This document shows, one piece after another, positions 38,488 to 56,508 of a stretch of 64,000 nt of DNA. Both the position numbers and the translations under genes were made by a program. Position 1 is the first letter of the stretch. The number at the start of each line of letters is the position of its first letter. The notes beneath the pieces were generated by a model. The model did not search any database, had not been told where the DNA came from, and saw nothing but the letters and a program-made list of their open reading frames with translations. The stretch spans positions 2,170,001 through 2,234,000 of the forward strand of contig JABYQN010000007.1 of NCBI GenBank assembly GCA_022606135.1, given 5' to 3'. The stretch comes from Fomes fomentarius. Taxonomy: Eukaryota > Basidiomycota > Agaricomycetes > Polyporales > Polyporaceae.

Positions 38488-40362
38488 TCAACCCCGAGTC
38501 CAGTCTGGCCAGACCCCGTTGTCGACAGAGCCCGCCTCCTCCCTCCACTCCTTCGGCAACTGAGCCTCACCGTCGAGTCGCGCCCGTATGATCAACTCGT
38601 CCACGAACGTGCGCAGAGCAGCAGGCTTCCACGCATGGGACGGCTCGGGGCTCTCGATGGCAAGGCGGCGGACGCGAAGACCCTCCCACGCTCGGCTCTC
38701 GACGATCTCGCGAATGGTCTCAACGTTCGCGTCTGTCCCTCGGTAATTCCGCAGACAGAGTGTCCCGAGACTGGGACACGCTGTTGGGTATTTTGACTTG
38801 CGCTCGGGTTGGGCGACCACGAGTAGATCTTTGAAGTCCGTGATGTGGACGCGGTCGTCGAACACTACTCCGAGCGTGGTCAGCGTGGGGAGAGCGTGGA
38901 GGATGGCAGGGGTGAGGACGAATGTGGTTGGATGGCGGACGGCCCAGAGGATGAGGACGTGGGAGAAGATTGGCGCACTGAGCATGTTCGACAGTGCGAG
39001 GGTTATGCACTCTCGGGATACGGAAGACGGTGCGATGACGACTAGGAATAGTCCCGACTCTGATCGTTCGTCCGCGAGATCGACAGAGAACACGGTGTTG
39101 TATCCTCGTGTTAGTGGACTCAGCGGCTTAGCGGAGATAGACATTCGCGTCAACTGCTCTGCGTCAAGCTGCCCGCACAGCGGTGATTGAGTGAGGATGA
39201 GTGCTTCATCGAGCGGAATATTATCGATCCGGATGAGGCACTTCCGAGTGACAACGATGTGCGAAATAAGCCAGACAGAATGCTGTATGAATAGAGAGAT
39301 CCTGCGGAGCATGTAGAGGGAGATGGGATGTGGCGGGTGGGTTGGCAGTAGTGCGACGTCTCTGGTAGAACGGATGAACACCTCTTCCAGTCTAGGGCAA
39401 CGACTTAGAAGGGCGAGGATATGTGGCAGAGAAGGAATGCCAATGATGTTATCCAGCATAAGATGCGTGAGGCTTGAGAACTGGTCTGTCGGTATGATAG
39501 TCGTGCTGTGGATAATAAGCTCGCGGAGGTCATGCGCATAACCGGAGAACAGCGAGTAGGAGTGCTCCGGGAGCCCGTGTCTCGGCCAAAACCGAAGGTC
39601 AAGCTCGCACGACAGCAAGTCAGGAGCAACGACAGCGAGCAGATCCCGTGGGTCGCGACGTCTAGTCCAGTTCTCGGTCATGTCGAGCAAGAGGAGATGG
39701 CGTACTCGCGACGGTTGATCCTGGAAGAGCTCTGCGGCTGTTTCCACATCACCGTTCACGATGAGGTGCAGGGCGCTGCTCCGCGACAGATGCATGTAGC
39801 GTTCGAACGGGGTGTGGTCACGGCCGCCACATACGATGCCAGACCAGAGCGTTGCGGTGGATAGTGCAACGTTGCGCCAGTGCTTGCACACTTCGGTGAG
39901 CCGGAGAGCGGCCCGAGCGGATGGCAGCCTAAAAGGGTGAAAGGAATAGTTGCCGTGGCGCACTTCTTGGGTTGCGCATGAAGAGAAAACGCGTGCGAGC
40001 AGCTCGGGGGGAAGCGTGTTGATGGTTATAGTCGAGTTCAATAGAACTCGAACAGAAGAGGAAGTTTCTGCCAGCACATCTGAAATATTGCGTAGCTGCA
40101 TGCGCATAGGTACACTCGGTTAGCTTTCAGCTTTCAGGGATATTTGCATCACTAAACGATGAATAAGTCTTACTGTTTCGATATAGCCCGTCTGTGGGAG
40201 TCTACTTAGGTGATCAGTTAGAAGCTGAGAGTAGACCATGCTGGGTGGTACTAACTTGATTCCCTCCGGCACACCGAGTCTCTGTGCTCTTTCGAGCACA
40301 TTACGCATGTCATGCAGAATCCCAATGGCATTCATGTCGTGTAGCTTCGATGCATCGCTCAT
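38488..40362 (-). CDS. F-box-like protein 1
   Basis: Two exons (40362-40174, 40095-38488) give 598 residues. The 78-nt intron has a GTAAGA donor and a GCATGCAG acceptor and joins in phase. The N-terminal helix region (LLTDHLSRLPQTGYIET plus LRNISDVLAETSSSVRVLLN) is followed by the F-box: INTLPPELLARVFSSCATQE, then VCKHWRNVALSTATLWSGIV. This is the standard layout of mushroom F-box proteins. The rest has diverged leucine-rich repeats (LRELIIHSTTIIP, LTHLMLDNIIG, CPRLEEVFIRST). F-box proteins recruit substrates to SCF ubiquitin ligases; the target is unknown. Divergent from F-box-like protein 2. Confidence 0.82.
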
Positions 40363-41992: not shown

Positions 41993-43901
41993 GGTTTCCT
42001 GGTACACTGACCACATAAACTCCTTCAGCGGCTGTGGGTAGACCAAGGAACTCCCTTGAGGATGTGCAGGCATGATACACTCAAGACAAAACATTCAATG
42101 AGGGTATACACGCGGATCTCAGTCTATACCAGGTGTACGTGCAAGCAACGCGTCGAATATCGCAGCTTCGGGCTGACCGGGTCACGAATCACGACCAGAC
42201 TGGAAGCTCAAGTCGGGCGGGTCTGCACCGTATCTGATTCGTATACAGTGGCACACTTCCCATGATGAAGCCACAAACCGTCTCCTGCCCAGTGCCCAGT
42301 GCACAGCCAAGGGCTCGCATGAGGTGAGTGGTGGGTGGAGTGGGCCTTCGCTGCAGAGCGCGCTGCAATTCCGTCAACCGCTGATACACCTGATGAACAC
42401 GAAAAATTGCAGTGGCACCTCGTGCGGTTGTGCGCTCGCTCTTGTGTTTCTGGGGCAACACGGAGTGGATGTGTTTCAGAGCCAGCTTCGCTGCTGCCGC
42501 GACACAGCGGCATGCCACTCTCTCTTTAGCGGCGGTCAAGAACTCCGAGTAACCTTCGCCACGCACTTCGCCCTGACCATCCTGTTGCACTGCTCGCCCA
42601 CATGGCCTCCCGTGCAAACGTCAACAGAAGGGCGAGAGCCGGGCCCACAGGCACAAACGTTAACCGTACCGCTGCTCATGCCTCCTATCTATGTGGTATC
42701 CAGTTTCAGGGTCGCTGTCTCACCTCACGGAAGCACCAGCGCAGGCACATGGTACGGGTCGCTGCAGCATAAAACCCGCGTGCGCGCTCGGCAACTGACG
42801 AATATGGCAACCCTTGTATTGCAACGCCCAAGAAGCTCGCGTCCAATCATGATGAGTGGCCGCTGAAGAACCCACCGCACCTCGACCGAGTAAATATCTG
42901 ACAAACTCTGCGCGCAAGGATGACAAGAAGAAGCACATATTTTGAGTGTCGTGACGAGGCGGATGACGAGTCGCGACTGGAACTGGAATACGTAATACGT
43001 GTGCGATGATGAATCCGGGTTCGGTGATTATGTGAATGATGTGGACGCGTACACGGGACACCGGGGAATATTAGACATACGATGATGACGAGAGAGAGGA
43101 GGTGTGAGCATTGGATGAGACGGGCGAGCTGGGGGAAACAGGGGGGTTGCAACTGATACAAGACAAATATCGAATGGATGAGAAATACACTATCTGGAGG
43201 CGCGAGTGGGAACGAATTGCAGTATGTACGGGTGATGATGCGATAAAAGAAGTCCGTCCGGGAAACCAAGTATAGCAACAATAAGTTATTCATAGCGAGA
43301 GCGAACACGCAGTCCGGTCGCCACCGTCCTCAACGGCCACCGAGAGACTGCGCCTCTGCGATCTGATACCCCCTCCGTGTATCAGGGCGTCGTGAGGCGA
43401 TCTGCGGCCTACGCAATCCGCTCGTGCCCGTCGTGTCACCGTGTTTGCGGTAGAAGTCGAGAGACAAGGTGGAGGCCCACTAGCGCACGCCAAGCGCCCC
43501 GACCTTTGTACGGAGGAGCGCAGGAGCAAGATGGTGTCAGGTCGGACTGGGGCGGATCTCGGGGGCAGCGCACGAGGCTGGAATACTCGAGGTGCCTTTG
43601 ACAAAGCTGACGCTGTCAAAGGGGTAGGGGGGGGATCGAGCGCCTCGATTACGGCTGCGAGTAGGTTTGACGACGCGGAATTTGCGGGGTAGACGGAGGA
43701 CTCCGACTTGTAGCGTAAAAGGTGGAGCCCAGAGCATGAAAGGCGGAGCCGACAGCGTGAAAGGTGGAGCCGGGAGCGGTGGGTGGAAGAGGGAGAAGGG
43801 GAGAGATCGTGAAGAAGGGGAACGGAATGGGCTGAGCAATGCGCATTGTGGATGGTTTGCAGCCTGCGCAAGCTGCATGTATGTCGCGGAACGATGCACC
43901 C
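41993..43901. other. Gene-poor stretch, nothing recognised except a minisatellite
   Basis: About 1.9 kb. Open frames on both strands at 42189-42866, 42847-43308 and 43290-43899 have no family features and overlap each other. A three-copy tandem repeat lies at 43715-43779. Confidence 0.4.
43715..43779. repeat. Three-copy 21-bp tandem repeat
   Basis: Three imperfect copies of the unit AAAGGYGGAGCC-N3-AGCGTG follow each other. Differences are mostly in the three N positions. The repeat lies just 3' of the first tiny peptide gene, which runs leftward, so it may fall in its 3' untranslated region. Confidence 0.7.
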
Positions 43902-44027
43902 TTAGAAGAATACAGGGCCATTCGAAGAGGCAATGTTTCGAATGTTGGTCTGCGAGGATGAGGAAGAGCCAGAAGGCTTAGGCTTTGAGCTGGAGGTGGA
44001 GACGGGAGTGGCAGACGAAGCGAGCAT
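43902..44027 (-). CDS. Tiny Ser/Pro-rich peptide, PVFF family copy 1 (41 residues)
   Basis: A 126-nt frame starts MLASSATPVSTSSSKPKPS, continues with five Ser and ends QTNIRNIASSNGPVFF followed by TAA. The N-terminal part is Ser/Thr/Pro/Lys-rich and probably disordered; there is no signal peptide and no membrane segment. The ATG is the first one beyond the expected transcription start of a TATATAAG box (44147-44158), with a C/T-rich leader of about 100 nt. The last 16 residues align with two other tiny frames in this window (47764-47916 and 54036-54152). Function unknown. The repeated C-terminal block with different synonymous codons is the main reason to call it a gene. Confidence 0.68.
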   Translation of the reverse strand: MLASSATPVSTSSSKPKPSGSSSSSQTNIRNIASSNGPVFF

Positions 44028-44146
44028 GACGACGATTGTAGTAGCTGTAGTAGGCAAGGGACTCGGAAGAAGGTATGCCTGCTAGGAGGATGAGGCCGCG
44101 AGTTGTGAGTTTGGTGAATTGAGGACGAAGGCGAAGTAGGACATAC

Positions 44147-44158
44147 CTTATATATTGC
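44147..44158 (-). promoter_or_regulatory. TATA box of tiny peptide gene 1
   Basis: On the minus strand the sequence reads CGCAATATATAAGG. It lies about 120 bp upstream of the ATG at 44027. Confidence 0.55.
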
Positions 44159-45162
44159 GCTACGGACCACGACAAGACGCTGCACCGGACATAATGATAC
44201 GCTGTGCGAGCGCGGCAGCCTCATGACGTGGTATGACTCGGCTACAATCGCCTCTGAACCCCCCAGACCGGTACCTGAAAATCCGGACTGGACAGAAATG
44301 ACTTGTCGACAAGACGACAGGGGGCGGTCTGCCACTTGCCGCATTGCGATGAACGGTGACGCCGCGACGGCGGCGGATGTAATTTCGAACGCGGAACAGA
44401 AAAAGCATAATGGTCAACCAACCACTCACCACACAAAAGGAACGCACCCTTGATGCTGCACGAGACTCCGAAACGGGACATTCGCAGCACTTGGTAACAG
44501 TATTTCATTTACCGCACTTTACATAACGCCTGCGCGGTGTGCGACGATTGGTGCGGCCGGGAACGCAGTTCGCGTCTTCCCGGCATTCGGGCAACACGGT
44601 AATGGTAGAGTGGAGGGGGCCGGTGCAGAAACAAGAACGGAAACATGAAGAAGAGGATCCAGAACAGATAGACACGTACCATACACAGCATTGGCGAGTG
44701 ATAGAAGTCCGTCGAGAACGCCGAGTCAGATATTCGAAGGCTTGAGTGACTCGAGCTGCTATCTTGTCATCCCGCCGCGATGTCTACCCTGTCCTCGAGG
44801 CTGAGGCGCATCGAGGCGTTGGGCGGTGCAGACTGTACAGTGGGTGTCCTCAGCACATCCTCGATGTGGACTGGCGGATGAACGATTATATCTGTCGTTT
44901 CTCACAGCATTCAGTGTGGGCGCGGGTGAGCGCGATTCATCACCTTGACCCAACTTGCCCGGAAAGACGGCGATAGTGCGGTTTGGTTCTGTTCCAATCC
45001 AAGAGCAAACGGTCGAGATACCTCGAGATAATATGGCTAGTTGCGGTCGCAATAATTGGGCAAGACGTTCAGCAAGACGAGTTGCAAGTCATCGTTCGAA
45101 TCCAAGACACGCGACTGGGAGTCGGTGGATGTGAGAACTTCCCAAGTGGTTCTAAGCGAACC

Positions 45163-45176
45163 GAACCGATCGGTTC
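45163..45176. repeat. 14-bp palindrome, copy 1
   Basis: GAACCGATCGGTTC is a perfect palindrome. With one flanking base on each side the 16-mer CGAACCGATCGGTTCA is identical to 52473-52488. Confidence 0.6.
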
Positions 45177-47763
45177 ATCTTTGCCACCGAATGTGATGAA
45201 CCTGTGCACATCCGAGTCCCAACAGCACGGGCTGATGATGAATTGCCAACTTCCATGACCATCATACCAAGTTTCAGCAATCCTTCGATACGTGAGGTCA
45301 TTATTGCGATGAAATGTACGTTATTGCCTCAACGCCGTCTGTATCGCACTCATGAATGTTTAGATGATCATGCCGCAATCAATTCAATGTGAGAAGAGGG
45401 ATAGCCGGTAACGCCCCCGTCAGCCCGCCGCCCCTCTAGTGGCATGTTGCAGTTGCAGACATACCGCGACATTGTCATTCGGCACTCACCGGTACTCAGT
45501 ACTCATCGCTAGCCCGCTCCAGGCCGTGAATCAAAGATGGCGGTGCGCACATCGCTCCCGTGTCTTGTCTTCAGCCGCAGTCTGGCATGATTGACGTGCA
45601 CCAGAAGACAGAATTTGGTGCCTATCATATGTATGTTTTTAGGTGAAAGATGGACGTGCGGCCCAACACTTGCTGTCGTAATAGGAGCTCCCGACTGTTT
45701 TCCTGGTTGCATGGGTGCAATTTCCGACGCAGCAGAATCGACACCCTCTGGAAAGATCGCATGCTCGTCATGCGTATACATCGGTCTAGGTGACAACGCG
45801 TTACTCAGCATAACGTACCGGTGGGCTCCAGTACTCACCGAGACCAACAATCGTACTAAGCGTTACAGGACCCTATTGACGCTTATCTGTCATTCCTACC
45901 CTCACTCGGACAAATTGTCCCCGCATAGAACTGCATGCATACTCCAAGTCAGACCCACGGTGGCTTCGCGGAGATTATCTGGCCACAGATATACAGCGTC
46001 CGGAAGTACATCTCCCGCCTCTCCCATCTCCGCGTCCCTGCGCATCTCCATGCATATCAACCCTGTTGAAGCCCCAGAACCCAGCGAACGTACACATCGA
46101 CCGCCCAGGTCCCTGGTTCTCGCCAGGAGGCTGCCGGCACCCCCTCAACCCCGGACACACCCACACACCATCTCTGGAGGTTCCATCAACGCGTTCTGCG
46201 GGACGCCTCGGGTTTACGCCTCCGCTCCGTGTGCCTTTCTTCCACTTCTTCTCTTGCCCCCATCCCCGGTCCTCCACCTTGGTCGGATCGGCCCTGAATT
46301 TGATTATCTGGATCAACTCAATCATGCGAAGCCTCATTAGCTGCCCAGCGGCCTTGGTCGCGCTCTCGTCCGGGCTCTAGAAGGGAGGCCCAGGATTCAC
46401 AGGGTCGACAAGGAACGTGACACAGCTCCCCGGCCTCATCACACCACCACGCCAGCGTCCAACCGGGGGGGGGGGCTGCGAAGGTTATTTCATGTGAGCC
46501 AAGCACGTCTTACTCAACGGCCGTCGTTAGGCTTACGTGTCCGTCGCGTCCCATGCAGAGATTACAAAGCAGATCGCGGAATGTGGATAGTTGGGGATCT
46601 AGACACACGCGACAAAACTGTGCACCAATCACTCCTATCCGGCGGAGGTGCCGGCCGGCGGGTCTGCAGGCCAACCCGCTCCCAAATGCGACTGAGGGCT
46701 GTGCATCTCAGCATGGGCGGGTGTCCTCAAGGTTCCAGACGTCGAACTTTGCCCTGCGGTTCTGTCAAATAGCCGTGCCTGACTCATGTTCGGGCGGGCA
46801 CAACCTCTCTACCTTCTAGCCTGACAGCCTTCGAAAAGGCACATACACACACGATGGGCCACGTAAAAGCGATGCATCTGCACGTCTGCTGCGCGTATAG
46901 TCAAATTGAGGCAATTAAATAGCGATTTATTGGCTCGGCAGTCACGGTTATGTGTTGGTAGCTAGTACGATACACCATCGCATGGTCATATTACATGATA
47001 CAGATCGTCATCCAAGCTACCAAGCACCGTAATATCATAGGTCAATACGATTCTAGGTCCGAGGAAGTTGGAACTGCGCAGGATAGTCACTACGTTGGGG
47101 AACCACATGGCCGCAGTGGTGCCAGTGGACACTGACTAGTACTATAGTAGTGACTCTTCACCGCTGTAGGCCGATGTGCGCACAGTGCACACTGTACCAC
47201 CCTAATCCTCCCATCCGCCCAACACGCAGCCACCTCAACCCATCAGGATTCTTCAGCCTTCTGAGCTTCCTCCGACCGTACCGTCCACGCAGAGAACCTC
47301 ACGGGAGGTCTAATTGTGGGGGAGACGCTCGAGAAGCCTTCGGCGGGCGCTGGAGCCGTGCGACGGCATCCGGCGTCATACGTCCGATCGGACCCACGCA
47401 GCGTAAGAGCGGTGTAGCGGCGAATATGTCAGCAACCGATGGGATGGAACGACGCGAGGTTCGCATGGTGGGCCGCGGATGCGGATGAGGACGAGGTGTG
47501 AGTCGCGGGGGTGGTGGCGGCGGAGAACTCCGACGCTGGCTGTCGAATGCGGAGAGGGTATCGAAGAACGGAGGGTATGTCGGACTCGGGAACGACCGCG
47601 ACTGATTTTGCAGCTTAAGGGTCGGAGTCGGAGTGGCACGGTGGAGGAAATGGAAGTCAATGAGGGAAGTGATGTGCGTTCGTGACGTCGTGAACGCACC
47701 GAGTGCGTCTCGGGCGGATACAGGGTTGTGCAGTGGCGCGTCATGGTGCATGTCACCCTGTGC

Positions 47764-47916
47764 TCAGAAGAAGACGGGTGCAGACGTCGCGGCAATCGCG
47801 CGGATGCCTCCAGTCTGCGATGTGGGCCGAGAGGGCGTGCCAGAACTTGTCTGTGTGGTAGGACGACCATTAACGACCTGGTTGGTGGGGGTAGAGATGC
47901 TGCTGTTGGTCTGCAT
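47764..47916 (-). CDS. Tiny Ser/Thr/Pro-rich peptide, PVFF family copy 2 (50 residues)
   Basis: A 153-nt frame starts MQTNSSISTPTNQVVNGRP, runs through a Thr/Ser/Pro-rich middle and ends QTGGIRAIAATSAPVFF followed by TGA. The ATG is the first one downstream of a TATAAAG box (48045-48052) after a C/A-rich leader of about 100 nt. The C-terminal block aligns with copies 1 and 3 (Q, I-R, A and P-V-F-F all match) while codons and even the stop differ. No signal peptide, no Cys. Function unknown. Confidence 0.66.
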   Translation of the reverse strand: MQTNSSISTPTNQVVNGRPTTQTSSGTPSRPTSQTGGIRAIAATSAPVFF

Positions 47917-50718
47917 TATGCGTATGGATGTGGTGGGCGAGTGGTACTGTGTGGAGGATGTATAGAGCAGGTGGGGCAGTGATGTCTGATGAAGCGGAGA
48001 CTGGCTGAGGATTGTTCGCTGAGGGTTGGTCTCGAAAACCGTCGCTTTATAAGGTCGCCAACGGTGAACAGGAGCTGTCAGAGTAGGGCGTGTCGAGCTG
48101 AACCTTCTTGGCTCGATGAAGCAATCATTGTGTTACCGGTATGCGTACTCGGGTAACATGCGCGCGGAGGCTGTCCGGGGAACCCAAATCCGATTAGGAC
48201 TCGGAGGTACGCACCATTGATAGTGTTACCGAACAGCCCCAGCGACATGAAGGAAGGCGCCAATATCGTAAGCGAGCAGTGCCTTCGAGGCACAGATTCC
48301 GGCACGAGTCGGTTTGTCGGTGTGATGGTGCAGCTGCACCCTGATTCATTCAGCCAGGAGCGCGCGACGAACTCGATAGGACGCGGTGACACGGTGGTGC
48401 ATCCCCGGCACATTGGCGAGGTCAAGCCCGCCAAGAGCTGGGCTAGACGGGCTGACGATGCTCACAGTGGCCGATCTTTCCCAGCTCCGCACGGAAGCCA
48501 TGGCATCGACACCTGGCAGAAAGACTCTCGATGAGGTGAGAGTTCACGCGAACTGCCAGCCCAGCGCTAGAGCAGAACGCCTTATCGAGATGCGAGAAGG
48601 ATCAGCCCTATCCGGATTCAGAAAGCAGACCACTCTGGCTTACGAACATACCAGCCTCCGCCATCTCGGAGCGAATCCAAGCCTCGTTACTGCCCGTCAT
48701 GCTCGGCATTTCGGCGGCTTGGACGCAATGTATCATCGTCGTAGTCGTAGTGATTACTCGGCTGCAGCATTTGGGCGCACCCACAATGACATATGAGCGA
48801 CTTCCTTGTCGAACTCCGCGGATTACACACACAACGACCTGTGTTCCTTGTATGTGCAGCAGTCAAATTCGTGCAGCTGTGTGGAACAATACGATGACAT
48901 CCATACCGATTACACCAAGCCAAAATATGGCAATTCGGATCCGAGCTCGTCCTCCGCAGATCACGGCCGGGGTAAGCTCATGCTCGGTTTCGCAAAACTC
49001 ACGCCGGCACGCGAACACATCCAAGAGGAGTATGGAGTCTTCCCAACCAGGGAACAACAGCGGACATCAAGATGGACATCGAGGGCGCGGCGTGGACTGC
49101 CAAGTCGCCGCGTCAGCATCCGCATAAGTCAGTACAATAGTGAGCTGCAGGGTTACTCTTCTATACGGATTGGACAGACTTACGTGGACGGCGCATCTAT
49201 CCCAGCATCCATAACGGCGGCAGGCCTACCCGCGATAGATGCCCATGCTTCCTCGTGCACGCGATAGTACCGCACTCCCGCGTCCAGGAAGGAGTGGCCC
49301 GTAAGCTCTCTCGCCGACCGGCACTCCACCCCACTTAGGGCCCTTCGCGCTCGTCTCCATTCCAAGAAGCTACTGCAGCAGGCGCCTGAGAGGTCTTCGC
49401 ATGCTTCCGTAGCGCCTACAGTGCCTGTTCGCGTGGGCCATCTGGATCCCGCCCATGGAGGCACGGCCCAAGCCCGCAGTAGCGACGAATCGGCGATAGG
49501 CATGCATGCCGCAGAACCTGACCTGAGTACGCCCTTGTTCACATCGCAACGTGGGTGCAGCATGTACTACACTTACCTTCACTCACGATAGCGGAAGTAC
49601 GGCGAGGACAGAATAAGGCTCTGGCTCGTAGTGCTATCGGACGCGAGTGGGGATAGGCCCTGTCCTCTGGTTACAATCGCTTTCCTGTATGTGGACAGTG
49701 GAGCACAACAGTGTACTTGAAAGACTCCGGGAGAATATCGCCCTGGATGACTCACTCACCCGAATCATGCGCTTCCATCTCACGGCCCTGTCCACCGAGC
49801 GGACAATTGATTGATCGCACGACAGTGCTGGAGTACGCAGCCGAGTAGGGACCTTCCGCCAAATCCGCCATTGTTCCACCATGAGGGTCATCACGCGCTT
49901 GCGGTACGATAGCGGCGGTAGTTGCAGGCACTGGCAGGCAGCGTAGACCCGCTGGAGAAGGTCAGCAGTCTTCAAGCACATCCGATTCTAATCGGGTCAG
50001 AAAGCAGATGAATGTGCCGTGCTTCGCATGAACGAAGTCTGGTGCACGGTGTCAACAGGGGTCTACGTGAAAGGGAGAGAGACGGCCCCCTTCACATAGT
50101 CTCGCCACTTGGTCGCTAGCCAAATATCCAGACACGGCAGAACTAGCATCCTGACGCGCCCACAGCGCCCACTCGGCGTTCTGACTTCTCTTGCGGGTAC
50201 AATCATCTAGGAGAGACTACATGAGAAAAGAGATAATTATGGGGGTGAATGGAACTTCCAACGGATGGTACGTACCTACCATAGGGCTGGCTCAGCTCGC
50301 TCGCGAGCCGGGGTCCGACACGACCCGATCGAACGCCGTTCCCTTGCTTCCTCGAAGTTGATTCGGTTCGTGAGCGTACCCTCATGCACCCTCATGCCCT
50401 GTGCTAGAAACTGGACATCCCCGACGCGCCGGAGACCTGGTGTATGATGGAATGTTCCGCGAAGAGATGCAAGCCGGCTTCCTAACACCACTCCGAGGGC
50501 GGAGGGGGTATCGGGATCGAGCTTCAGTGAGACGCACTATGTAGTTATTTTCCATCGTTAGTGCGTCCGGTAGCGTAGAGTTAAAACCCCAAACCTTAGC
50601 TGGAAATAATGCGGCCGAACAGCGGTGATATCGAACGTCAGAACGACGACTGCATAGAAGGTTATACACTTTGTAGTATAATGCGACTTAACCTCTTGGA
50701 CGCTATACTCGTTGTCCA
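47917..50718. other. Gene-poor stretch, possible orphan spliced frames
   Basis: About 2.8 kb. On the minus strand, short protein-like frames (49981-49760, starting MCLKTADLLQRVYAACQCLQ; and 49563-49196, ending with RYYRVHEEAWASIAGRPAAV) are next to good splice signals such as GTGAGTGAG...ACATACAG and GTAAGTCTG...TTGGCAG. I could not join them into one complete gene and do not recognise them. Confidence 0.35.
48045..48052 (-). promoter_or_regulatory. TATA box of tiny peptide gene 2
   Basis: On the minus strand this reads TTATAAAG, about 130 bp upstream of the ATG at 47916, with no ATG in between. Confidence 0.6.
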
Positions 50719-52273
50719 TCACATCACCTCGACAATAATCTTGCCACTGTTTCTGACAGCATCAGCTATGTCATATATTGCCTCCGTGCATTATTGACGA
50801 CTCGTACCTGTTGCTGTTTGCTTCCATCTCACGATGTGCTTCTTTGATCTCAGTCCAGGGATATATCTCAATGGACGCGGTCAGCGCGACTCCACAGTTC
50901 TCGCTTTATCGTAATGGGATCGAGGACAGTACCTTATGAATATAGGTCCGGATCGGTCCCTCGCCAGAGCTACCAGTGATATGGTCGAAGGCCTCGCGCT
51001 TGAACCTAGAATAGGTCGTGTCAGCCTTTAACAAACACAAGGAGATATTCTAGGACCGGACCTAGCGACCAGTTCGGCCTGATAATCGACAGTGCGCGAA
51101 CGCAGGGTGGAACCTTGGATTCGGAGTCGTTTATATAAGATGGGCGCAAGATTGACATTGGCGACTTCAGCACCTGCAAAGGTTTCACTGAATCTGTGCA
51201 TAGGACCTATTTGAAGTGACTCACCGCTCAGCAAGGCGAGCATCGTCATCCTGCCATCATACGCCAGGGCGTCGATGTTCTTGTTCCAATGAGACTGCCC
51301 GACAAAGTCGATGATCACATTGACGCCTTTCCCGTCCGTCGTCTTCTTGACCTCCTCGGCAAAGTCCTGAGTTTTGTAGTTTACCGCATGAGTGGGACCC
51401 TGGGGAAAGCCGAGCAGGCACTCGAGCTTCTCCCGGGTCGATGCGGTGGCCGTGACGGTATTTCTGAGATAGACGATTAACGTGAAGAACTCTGTGGAGG
51501 GGGAGCACAAGGAACGCACGCGCCGTAAAACCGCGCCAATTGGATCGCGGCTATGCCTACTCCTGACGCTCCGGCATGGACGAGAACGTCATCACCCTTC
51601 TTCACTTCGCCCAGAAGCACCAAGGCCTGGAAAGCTGCTCGATCAATGAGTATATATTTGTTGTTGGAGCACAGACCCCGCGAGGGACGGGAGCGATACT
51701 CCGAGCATAGCGGACAGCGACGCACATCGAAGAGCACGATGACGCAGGCTGCGAGATGCGAGACGTACCTGTGAGAAAGACCTCTGGTATGCCCGCCGCC
51801 TCGGCCCAGTTGAGGTGCGCTGGCTTGCTGATGAGATTCCTGTGAGGAGCCACTACGTACTCGGCGTATGCGCCCTGATGATGATGAAATGGGAAGAAGG
51901 TCAGTGCATATATGCGGTCATCGGGTACAGAACTCACTCCACCTGTAAGGCCTAGGACTTCATCGCCCTCTCGCCATTCCGAAACACCTTCTCCCACCTG
52001 AACAACACGACCGGAGAATTCCACGCCGAGGATAGTCGAATAACCTGGTGGCGGTGGGTATTTGCCTTCCCGCTGCGAGATGTCCATGCGATTCAGGCCA
52101 AAAGCCTTGACCTACAGTGTATATGATTGGATCAGCACGTTGTTTGTTGGCTCTGTGGTACGAGATCTGACCTTCACAAGGACTTTCCCTGGTCCCGGAA
52201 ATGGTTTATCTGTCTCTCCGAGATAGAGATTGTCGACAGGACCTTTATCGTCCTTGATCAAAATTGCTTTCAT
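50719..52273 (-). CDS. NADPH:quinone oxidoreductase, PIG3/TP53I3 type
   Basis: Medium-chain dehydrogenase/reductase family, zinc-independent quinone reductase branch, probably cytosolic. The start at 52273 ([20 protein letters not shown]) is followed by [49 protein letters not shown], then the Rossmann nucleotide-binding part [38 protein letters not shown] and the C-terminal [20 protein letters not shown], ending GKIIVEVM. Eight or more exons, introns of 50-140 nt, all GT-AG. No break was found. A 14-bp palindrome lies about 200 bp upstream of the start. It reduces quinones with NADPH in a detoxification or redox role. Confidence 0.9.
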
Positions 52274-52473
52274 GGTGGTCGGATTCTGAGTACCGCGAGC
52301 AGAGGCGACCTTGATAACTTAAACTCGGACCCTAAGCTTGTCTTCCCATCGCTGTGCGAGCATGTCGGACCGGGACAATGTGTCGCAGTGAAGTCGTCAT
52401 AGTTCAGTCATAGCGTAAAGTCAGCAACGTGCATGACTAAGTCTAATGACTTGAGCCAATCCATCTGGGGAAT

Positions 52474-52487
52474 CGAACCGATCGGTT
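52474..52487. promoter_or_regulatory. 14-bp palindrome upstream of quinone oxidoreductase, copy 2
   Basis: GAACCGATCGGTTC, identical to 45163-45176, is about 200 bp upstream of the start codon at 52273. Its centre CCGATCGG has the CCG/CGG half-sites favoured by Zn2Cys6 fungal regulators; that reading is inference. Confidence 0.5.
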
Positions 52488-53823
52488 CAATTCTCTGCCG
52501 AACAGCCAATTTGAGTCATTGCAGTTGTCCCACCGTTCTGACTCTGAGTCTTGTCTCTTAATACCTCCACGTTGCCTAGACTGCGTATACTGTAGCTCAC
52601 TGCAACCCTGATGCGTCGAACGATAACACTGGTGGTTGAGTATTGAGTACGCACCGGGATGACTAGCATCCACGTGCAGTCCCAGTCTACGTGATAAATT
52701 CACAGTGTTTCTTTTTTCCCCTCGATCCATGGAGCCTGTTGCTCTTACTTGGAAGTTGGCCAAAACCTAGGCAGCACCTGAAGACACGGCTGTGAAGGGC
52801 TACCTATCAGTACGTACTTCTGCGACACTCGTCATGATGAAACATTTCAATTGAAACAATCTAACACAGGTTTTGCGGGCCCTGATAAGTATAAGCCTCG
52901 AGCGCGGAGACCCGGTGAACACGCTTCTTCTTCCTCCGCCTTCTCTTTGCTCCTCGGCTTGTCTCCGAATGTCCGAGAGTCGTGCTTATCAGCATCATGG
53001 TGTGTCTTCGCACGCTCACGCACAGTAGATAGTAGACGCGATCATCATGTCAAACGTGTTATGAAGGAAGCACCGGTCGTCTTTTCCTTGTAAGTCACCC
53101 TATGTTGTTGCTTCGGAACCGTCAGCGCTGACCCGTCTGATGCTGTCGCACTAACTGTAGGTGTGAAAGCCGGTCGCTGAGGCCCCGTGGCTTCTTCAAA
53201 TCTTCTTCAGCGCTCTGGTTGGTTGGCAATAGCTTCTCACCGCTGGTGCCGCAAGTAAGACCGCGACACCATACCAATTGTGGACTAAGGTGATTACTAT
53301 GCTCGGAGACAGCCACAAGAAACGAACGAGGCAACTCCGATGAGTCTAACTGTCGGGCCGGCACCTTGCTCTTGGGCAGCGCTAATGAAGCGACTCCGAC
53401 GTGGAGGTCGCTCCTTCATTATACACTGCACAGCGTACGGCGCCCTGCTCCGTCAAAGCCACTTGACGAACACAGCCCTGACAGTGACCTACAATAGGCG
53501 ATGTTCGCCTCTCAACCTCGAGGCATATTGTCCATGGCGCCAGATGGAGATTGGCGCTGATGATTTTCGTTTGGGAGTCGGCGCAGTTACGTGCTCGTGC
53601 GTTCGCCTTCGCTGTCGAAACGCACGGCAAGGCACTGCCCGGTCCTATTCGGTGTGTGGGTGCCGTCACATCTACTTAATGCCATGTGTTTGACAATGCG
53701 CGCTGGACGCCAGCAGCGCCGCTTCCCATCGCTCATCATGCGCGTCTGCTTTACGCTTCCATTGACGTTGATTGCGCGGATACCTGTGCATGACGGATAT
53801 GCGGCAATATGCGTTGCTGCGTC

Positions 53824-53829
53824 TATAAA
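53824..53829 (+). promoter_or_regulatory. TATA box of tiny peptide gene 3
   Basis: TATAAA is followed by about 200 nt of C/T-rich leader without any ATG before the start codon at 54036. Confidence 0.6.
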
Positions 53830-54035
53830 GAGGGTGTCACCCTAGCAGTTCCACATATCGCCGCAGCGACATTCGCTCCCGCTTCCTGCTTTCGAGCATC
53901 CCGCCTTTCGACCCTTCAACCGGTGGTTCCCATAGACTCCAGTCGGCTAATCCCGTCTATCTTATTCTATTCGCCTTCCCATTTTTGGAGAAGTCCACGG
54001 TTCATCCCATACTACTTCATTACCCTACTTCCACC

Positions 54036-54152
54036 ATGTCGGCCAACACGTTCACCACTCCTGCGTCTTTCTCGCAGCCTGCGAAGCCCAAGCCTTCCTC
54101 GCAGAACATCATCCGCACGAACGCTGGCGCCGTTGCACCTGTGTTTTTCTAG
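54036..54152 (+). CDS. Tiny peptide, PVFF family copy 3 (38 residues)
   Basis: A 117-nt frame in excellent start context (CTTCCACCATGTC) begins MSANTFTTPASFSQPAKPKP and ends SSQNIIRTNAGAVAPVFF followed by TAG. It shares KPKPS with copy 1 and the whole C-terminal block with copies 1 and 2. It is the first ATG after a TATAAA box. The sequence TTTTTCTAG at the stop could look like a splice acceptor, but the other two copies stop with TAA and TGA, so the shared end is a protein terminus and not a splice site. Function unknown. Confidence 0.7.
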   Translation: MSANTFTTPASFSQPAKPKPSSQNIIRTNAGAVAPVFF

Positions 54153-56508
54153 GTGCCCTACGCTATCCCCTGTCCGACAATCCTACCACTCCGCGGCCTC
54201 CGCGCGAGGACTGCCCCGTCGCCGTCGGCAACCTCGCCCACCATCATTCGAGTCTCCTTGCCGAATATTCACCTCTATGCTATATCGCCGCCGTAATGGC
54301 CCCGTTAGGGCAACCACTATGCTACCGGGCGATCCGCCCTGCGGCTGTGTATGATGCGTCGGCCCATGCCCGCCCGAAGGACTCTGGCAGGAACCCTTTA
54401 AGTACCTTATCTCTATTTTACTCCTAGTCTAGTTATTCGACGCAGTCTATTGCTATATTTATTCTGCCTCCTGGGTGACCCGCTTTGGTATCTTATGCAC
54501 TCAGTGTATCCTCGTTGTACTCTAGCATGTAGTTCCGTACGTACTGCACAGTCGCTTCCATTCCTCCCATTGTAATCTTTTCCATCGTAATGGAAGAAAC
54601 TACGTGCATGGAATGTTGGATGAATGATGTGCAAGAACAAGAACACGAGCGGCTGTCGACAAAGAAGAAGCGTACACCTTTGAGCAGAATCCGGATGAGG
54701 TATAGTATACGTTGATCTACGTGTACAATGAATCCGCGAAGAGTATGTCCGCCCGAGCTGTGGCGAGTTTCATGTACGAATCATCTAGTGAGAGAGTCCC
54801 CTACTTCTATTCTTCTTCTTCATGCATTCACCAGTTATTCATCATCACACACCACAGGGAAGCGACGGCGAACCTCGCCAGTACCTTCAGGGTCTACTGA
54901 TAAGTTCTATGACCCGATCTCGGAGGATGCAGGTGCCACACGTACGAATGCTGTACCAATCTGTCAACTAACAGGATGAAGCCTCGATATTTCCCTATGG
55001 AGGATGAAAAGGTTTCCCTGCTTGTGAAGCTGTCCATAGAGAACAATTGACTCGGGTTGCTAGTAACCGTTTAATTGCAAGGAGAACTCGCGATCTGACC
55101 TTGAATGAGTCGGCAGGAGGCTCACTTGGACCATGGAACTTCCGATTGGTAGACCAACGCGAGTCCCCCCGTTTGATAGTATGTTGTGCTGATGCGTATG
55201 AGGTACTACTGGCTGTGGCGGAACATGCCGCAGTGGCTATTGATCTTGTCATGGTAGTACAGGTTGCCAGACAAAATGCAGCAACCTAGCAAGCGCACAC
55301 TGGCTTCTTATCGCCTGCCCTAAACCTTCAACACACTTACCCGCGCGTTTCTACGGTTCCTCTTCCCCGGCCCCCCAACGTCGCCTCTATACTCATGAGC
55401 CTTGAGGGAGACTTCCTCGCAACTGGGAGTCTGACCCTCAGGCGGCAGTCTAAAGGTGTCTCATACGTGGTTGGTGAGTCAGTGTTGCGGCTCAGTGGTC
55501 ATTATCCGCTCTCGCTCATACCGTGTTCAGTTTGTTAGATAAGCACGCCAATGTTGCCCCACGGAACTGGGTATACGGCGCAACCGTACGTCTCTGCTGC
55601 ATCATCTGCAGGAGATCCGATCTTGCTGATGCTTGGCTATCGTAAGGAGGGACAGGCTGGCTCTGCGAGCAGAGAGGACACCTGGCTAATAAGGACCATC
55701 TGATATCGCGATCGGCGGATGTCGACCAGCCTCTGTGAGTTGATCCCGCTGGACTTCATTGTCGATATCCAGTCCACTCATGGTGCTCTGCAGCAAGCCA
55801 AGCTTGCGCGGTGCAACATAGCCTGCGTCTGGCAAACAACACACCCCAGCGACCCATGGTCGCGCCGGTAGCTGTGGATCCGTTCGAGCAGACGATCGTC
55901 TCCCCGGGCGAGTCCTGACGCCGCCGTTGATTGCAAATTAATTACCCCAGGACATCTCGCGCGTATCGTCGTTATCCTGCGCTTGTGTATGTCGAGGCTT
56001 CGTCTCCGTAAGCATGTGTAGGGCTCGATGTGTATGCGTGCACATGTGCTAGCAGCTCAGTCAATATACAGTCATGCACTATCCGTCATTATGCTAACCC
56101 CTTCGTCGGCCAAGCTTTCAAGTGTCAAGGAAGAAGTCTGCGTATACGTGGATGGTGCTGAGAAGTCGTCGACTGGAGCTCATGCATCATGGTCGATCAG
56201 TGATTTGATCTCGTATCAGGCCCCTCGGAGGAATCATGTGAAATGGAAGTAGGAAAGCACGGCACGACCGTTTGTATAAGCTGGGAGCTGGAGGTGGCAA
56301 GGCAGCATCGTGGCAGGTGGTGGTACTACGCTTCAGGCCTGTGACCCTGGTGCCGAAGCGGAATATGACCTACCCCTGACGATGACGAGACGGCATCGCT
56401 ACAGTTGCTTGCGCTCAGAGTGCGGTGGAATAGTTTATCCTCGCTGCAGTGATAATCATAAACCGCATCACATATATTCGCAAAGGTGTCCGTGAACGTC
56501 CATCTATC
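54153..56508. other. Gene-poor stretch
   Basis: About 2.4 kb. It contains one weak spliced candidate (55395-55703) and otherwise overlapping short frames without family features. Confidence 0.4.
55395..55703 (+). CDS. Possible small spliced gene, unrecognised
   Basis: After a C/T-rich leader, an ATG opens MSLEGDFLATGSLTLRRQSK. A GTGAGT donor at 55474 and a TTGTTAG acceptor at 55538 continue in phase to DKHANVAPRNWVYGAT, and a GTACGT donor with a TCGTAAG acceptor leads to a 19-codon last exon ending at 55703. The total is about 60 residues. The splice sites are good but each has an alternative, and no relative is known to me, so this is a weak call. Confidence 0.28.

Follow-up and report, generated by a model that had tools for sequence, protein, structure and literature searches.

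Three short genes and their common carboxyl end

The window analysed here, a 64,000-nucleotide stretch of a Fomes fomentarius contig, carries three short genes, each with a TATA box upstream and each within a segment of pronounced strand skew (Table 1). The original prediction had named three frames of 41, 50 and 38 residues with a common PVFF ending directly before the stop, and all of them were located in the window. The last 13 residues of the three products form a gap-free alignment, I-R-x2-A-x4-P-V-F-F-stop, so that the predicted motif stands, while the shorter variant of its A-x(3,4)-P spacing does not, A-x4-P being found in all three genes. Reading the codons in the three frames gave GTA, GTC and GTG for the valine, as had been stated. 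Within the tail, codon positions 1 and 2 agree in 8–10 of 13 codons in the three gene pairs and third positions in 6, 3 and 6 of 13, and the residues that are identical within the last 13 differ in their synonymous codons in 4 of 8, 5 of 7 and 4 of 8 cases, respectively. Because identical residues often use different codons, and with three different stops behind them, the likeness of the tails lies at the level of the protein, as originally proposed. A splice-site artefact was rejected as the source of the tail, as GTATTC, GTCTTC and GTGTTT fit the splice donor consensus poorly and the residues upstream of them are conserved with synonymous changes. Structure prediction from a seven-row alignment was uninformative (pLDDT 63.6, pTM 0.13, no DSSP output).

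Table 1 Genes, promoter-like elements and skew segments of the window, and relatives of the encoded peptides. Promoter roles and segment limits are inferred, the latter being approximate.
Feature	Position in window	Strand	Description
Gene 1	43902–44027	minus	41 aa, stop TAA; subtype 1; tail 43902–43943
Gene 2	47764–47916	minus	50 aa, stop TGA; subtype 2; tail 47764–47805
Gene 3	54036–54152	plus	38 aa, stop TAG; subtype 3; tail 54111–54152
TATA box of gene 1 (TATATAA)	44148–44154	minus	127 bp before ATG
TATA box of gene 2 (TATAAAG)	48045–48051	minus	135 bp before ATG
TATA box of gene 3 (TATAAAG)	53824–53830	plus	212 bp before ATG
C-rich-strand segment, gene 1 unit	43401–44250	minus	skew peak 0.45
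C-rich-strand segment, gene 2 unit	47301–48250	minus	skew peak 0.38
C-rich-strand segment, gene 3 unit	53701–54400	plus	skew peak -0.37
P0001, Fomes fomentarius C8Q74DRAFT_1369741			hypothetical protein; end equals gene 1 letter for letter
P0005, Fomes fomentarius C8Q74DRAFT_1369742			hypothetical protein; end identical to gene 2
P0006, Ganoderma sinense GSI_02958			subtype 2 (with gene 2)
P0007, Daedaleopsis nitida C8Q80DRAFT_1117239			subtype 3 (with gene 3)
P0009, Lentinus tigrinus L226DRAFT_571900			subtype 1 (with gene 1)
P0002, P0003, P0008, metagenomic			subtype 3 (with gene 3)
P0004, metagenomic			subtype 2 (with gene 2)

The six frames of the window hold three PVFF-stop endings, all with I-R-x2-A upstream, and a chance origin of the shared tail was rejected on the grounds that 60 windows simulated with a second-order Markov model contained a mean of 0.017 PVFF-stop endings each (maximum 1) and the full motif in none. 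When the three loci (2.6–2.8 kb each) were compared with one another in six frames, the peptide ranked first for genes 1 and 2 (E 4e-4) and for genes 2 and 3 (E 0.026), and second for genes 1 and 3 (E 0.005), after its own antisense (E 0.003). The other matches, among them a weak one of 180 residues between the loci of genes 1 and 2 (E 0.018), begin at E 0.011 and resemble low-complexity sequence.

Across the genome (40.9 Mb in 24 contigs), the DNA pattern for PVFF followed by a stop or Trp has 14 matches against 12 for the reversed control, and PVFF-stop alone is thus not enriched; IRxxA lies upstream at only three of the 14, the window loci themselves. Endings of the PIFF type (4 matches, 4 in the control) and the PV[FY][FY] type (27 matches, 38 in the control) revealed no further family member in the genome. 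Searches of the genome with single proteins, an insensitive approach, likewise gave no other convincing member: none of the three genes, when used as query, recovered either of the others, the metagenomic relative P0002 found gene 1 only at E 0.074, and stray matches on C1, C18 and C6 (E 0.041, 0.116 and 0.255) have alignments that stop short of PVFF. Judged by these patterns, the genome has three members with an ending of the PVFF kind, and divergent paralogues could be missed.

The anatomy in front of the genes resembles that of promoters. The TATAWAR pattern occurs at 15 sites on both strands of the window, which correspond to 11 distinct places, as several of the 12 sites that do not belong to the genes are palindromic and are read twice. 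Over the 400 nt that follow it, the C-skew is 0.46, 0.35 and 0.33 for genes 1–3 and lies between -0.11 and 0.01 for the remaining 12 sites, i.e., a strongly C-rich strand follows only the three gene sites. A TATAWAR 90–230 bp upstream is found for 37 of the 2247 ATGs in the window, the three genes included, and for all three family genes. The skew segments match the genes in position and sense strand, but with 16 segments of this kind in the window, skew alone is unspecific. Read together, TATA boxes and skew would mark out three Pol II transcription units, separate from one another and some 0.7–0.95 kb long. The three loci share no more upstream 6- to 8-mers than random triples do. On the minus strand, positions 44163–44192, immediately in front of the gene 1 TATA box, read MSGAASCRGP in another frame, and the Lentinus tigrinus model P0009 begins MSGAASHRG; this likeness suggests that promoter DNA, and not a protein, is what has been conserved.

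Relatives, subtypes and annotation

A profile built from the three window peptides and searched against 5.8 billion proteins returned four relatives (P0001–P0004), the same four were found in a second search among 161 candidates, and a third search with a longer alignment yielded nine (P0001–P0009) among 4584 candidates. Independent E-values are those of P0002–P0004 in the first search (4.4e-8, 9.7e-7 and 2.9e-3) and of P0006–P0009 in the third (1.1e-11, 2.0e-9, 1.4e-8 and 2.4e-5); those of P0001–P0004 in the later searches are not, as these sequences were then part of the profile, nor are those of P0001 and P0005, which are copies of genes 1 and 2. All four named species belong to the Polyporaceae. 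The check for further members in related genomes that had been proposed with the original prediction therefore found relatives in three other Polyporaceae genera, as well as four metagenomic proteins, and because of these relatives the family reading is favoured. The three loci are real genes of a conserved family, as evidenced by the relatives across genera and by the TATA box that each gene has of its own. Searched with the three window peptides, Pfam yielded no family at E up to 10, and it yielded none for P0005–P0009 at E up to 1; NCBIfam and PDB gave no match to the family, and 61 stretches of viral contigs that fit the pattern included no confirmed relative.

The motif I-R-x2-A-x4-P-V-F-F is contained in all ten distinct sequences, with I, R, A, P, V, F and F of the tail invariant throughout. 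Conservation is anchored at the carboxyl end, as had been claimed, with FF terminal in nine of the ten members. A stop directly after FF, also part of the claim, holds for those nine and fails in the Lentinus tigrinus model, which ends PVFFP. Similarly, cysteine is absent from nine members as predicted, and P0004 has one near its N-terminus, while the predicted lack of a CaaX box is borne out by the absence of a tail cysteine in all ten. No signal peptide was seen by eye.

Sorted by eye, the ten distinct sequences fall into three apparent subtypes, the fronts of which differ in length and sequence while the tail stays (subtype 3 ranges from 38 to 43 aa). Since each subtype in this grouping spans more than one genus, the duplications are probably older than the genera. 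Subtype 2 outside Fomes (P0004 and P0006) seems to begin with a hydrophobic MQFLFDLF; gene 2 of Fomes fomentarius has no such start and begins MQTNSS instead.

It had been suggested that the family may escape gene callers. This does not apply to genes 1 and 2, which are annotated as hypothetical proteins, and does apply to gene 3, for which no annotated protein was found among the matches of the three profile searches. The N-terminal extensions of annotated genes 1 and 2 look wrong and their 5' ends are doubtful, as the gene models extend through the TATA boxes or splice over them.

Possible functions of the conserved tail

As the front of the protein drifts while the hydrophobic tail is almost fixed, the product would be expected to act in trans via its tail. 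Tentatively, and with somewhat less than even confidence, we favour disordered intracellular microproteins whose C-terminal tail docks on a partner protein. The three loci would then be microprotein genes that are transcribed separately and translated, as old paralogues that the Polyporaceae have retained in three subtypes, and the fast-changing, Ser/Thr/Pro-rich front of a short and probably disordered protein might serve as a tether or spacer. The working part would be the tail I-R-x2-A-x4-P-V-F-F, at the carboxyl end or one residue before it, with the arginine and the hydrophobic P-V-F-F terminus forming a C-terminal short linear motif that docks on the partner inside the cell, and with different specificity conferred on the paralogues by the variable tail residues. 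Acidic residues are absent from eight of the ten members, which counts for this microprotein reading. Unless the gene model is wrong, the PVFFP ending of Lentinus tigrinus counts against the idea that the FF end must strictly be free.

The alternative that survives best, although we consider it unlikely, is a leaderless signal precursor, in which the front would be removed after the invariant arginine and the resulting 11-residue [A/G]PVFF peptide exported non-classically and then re-imported or perceived by other cells. Eleven residues follow this arginine in nine of the ten members and 12 in Lentinus tigrinus, and each of the three subtypes has its own set of conserved inner residues, which gives them the look of separate ligands. 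Like the precursors of CaaX lipopeptide pheromones, family members are of about 40–55 aa with a variable front, occur as several paralogues of short and easily missed genes, and have an arginine-containing motif 10–15 residues from a hydrophobic end. Mating pheromones diversify, whereas the tail of the PVFF family is nearly invariant across genera. In the available portions of the sources, basidiomycete pheromone precursors carry an E/R-type pair 10–15 residues from the end and give mature peptides of ~9–11 residues (PMC3140503), and Cryptococcus Qsp1, also from a basidiomycete, has 11 residues and is released by cleavage of a precursor (PMC6571750, PMC7537855), both of which the family resembles in size and layout. 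Even the additional residue behind the terminal motif is not without example, since one pheromone precursor ends CAAXW, as given in the accessible part of PMC3140503.

On the other hand, the invariant pair is I-R and not E-R, forming the 13th and 12th residues from the end in nine of the ten members, and isoleucine precedes the arginine in all ten, where pheromones have an acidic residue. The members have neither a CaaX box nor a dibasic site in front of the tail, and no signal peptide is apparent by eye. Unlike the precursors of CaaX pheromones, the PVFF tail is without Cys or CaaX, the family has no Pfam match, and no receptor, including the STE3 type, was recognised among the 20 window frames scanned out of 409 of at least 70 aa; membership in that class was rejected given the lack of a tail cysteine in all ten members and of a Pfam match. 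For Qsp1, secretion and maturation by Pqp1 are established, whereas export and processing of PVFF peptides are hypothetical. A narrower version, in which three TATA-promoted paralogues would release distinct, non-prenylated APVFF or GPVFF peptides of 11 residues, leaderless and near-unchanged across genera, is more doubtful still.

Another role, e.g., as a ribosomally made and enzyme-modified peptide or as a peptide of the membrane or cell wall, appears improbable. Mushrooms do have short, leaderless precursors with multiple paralogues, namely the Amanita MSDIN family, and one MSDIN core happens to contain the letters PVFF; yet MSDIN precursors, as far as the available text of PMC7998459 describes them, combine a conserved leader with a variable core in the middle and a recognition tail, the reverse of the PVFF-family layout. 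Membership was rejected, none of the ten members starting with a conserved N-terminal leader of the MSDIN type, and the 20 window frames scanned include no recognisable modifying enzyme.

Least probable of all, and in our view very improbable, is a role in cis, whereby the nascent tail, close to the stop or directly at it, would cause arrest or recoding from within the ribosome exit tunnel and control translation of a downstream ORF. The conservation does sit directly before the stop, and ATG-initiated ORFs of 113 and 150 aa start 23 and 12 nt after the stops of genes 1 and 2, an arrangement (ORF of at least 110 aa within 30 nt) seen at only 3.6% of random window positions. These two ORFs are, however, unrelated and have no Pfam match, and gene 3 lacks a downstream ATG ORF of at least 80 aa before +575. 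The nascent-peptide signal of the Agaricomycete antizyme sets a precedent, with peptide-level conservation shortly before the stop of ORF1 and third codon positions free, as in the PVFF genes; its shift site, according to the available sections of PMC4505036, is UUU-UGA, followed by antizyme ORF2. The PVFF genes, by contrast, end TTC-TAA, TTC-TGA and TTC-TAG and have no Pfam-recognised frame downstream among those scanned, and identity with antizyme ORF1 was rejected since a UUU-UGA site is lacking and the scanned +1 frames have no Pfam match. Both an arrest uORF and recoding of the antizyme type are disfavoured because the genes share no convincing downstream ORF, use three different stops and, in the Lentinus tigrinus model, have a proline between FF and the stop.

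Novelty and neighbouring sequence

Some member sequences are already public as hypothetical proteins: two are from Fomes fomentarius, and Ganoderma sinense, Daedaleopsis nitida and Lentinus tigrinus contribute one apiece. Among the matches listed in CC-licensed PMC literature, titles and abstracts do not name the PVFF family, CC-licensed PMC papers do not mention C8Q74DRAFT, and the available parts of PMC8893723, PMC11827164 and PMC3068285 contain no mention of the family. As far as these searches of CC-licensed PMC titles and abstracts reach, novelty applies to the family as such, to its tail and to its promoter anatomy. It would constitute an orphan family of microproteins or peptide precursors.

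This conserved family of ~38–61 residues (with starts chosen here) spans four wood-decay genera and is nameless in Pfam, NCBIfam and PDB, and its members either lack an annotation or carry one with a doubtful start. A near-fixed 13-residue tail on an otherwise drifting protein points to a binding partner, protease or receptor, and is short enough for synthesis, making its role directly testable. Moreover, combining promoter and tail in the same way could bring further hidden peptide families of fungi to light.

Concerning the surroundings, 11 of the 20 frames submitted to the Pfam scan lie within 42–51 kb, and none of them gave a match across this region of about 9 kb (42000–51000), which holds genes 1 and 2. 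The region is flanked by an F-box-like frame (38491–40119, E 5.6e-7) and an ADH_N frame (51605–52111, E 1.4e-16). In Rfam, no family reached the threshold in 42000–56500. Between genes 1 and 2, a C-rich-strand segment on the plus strand (45801–46400, peak skew -0.31) has no TATAWAR, no PVFF frame and no Pfam match in the frames scanned, and is possibly another short or non-coding transcript. Finally, a C-rich-strand segment on the minus strand lies just downstream of gene 1 (42851–43350, peak skew 0.36), including a frame that starts MNNLLLLYLV, and could belong either to the distal portion of the gene 1 transcript or to a unit of its own.
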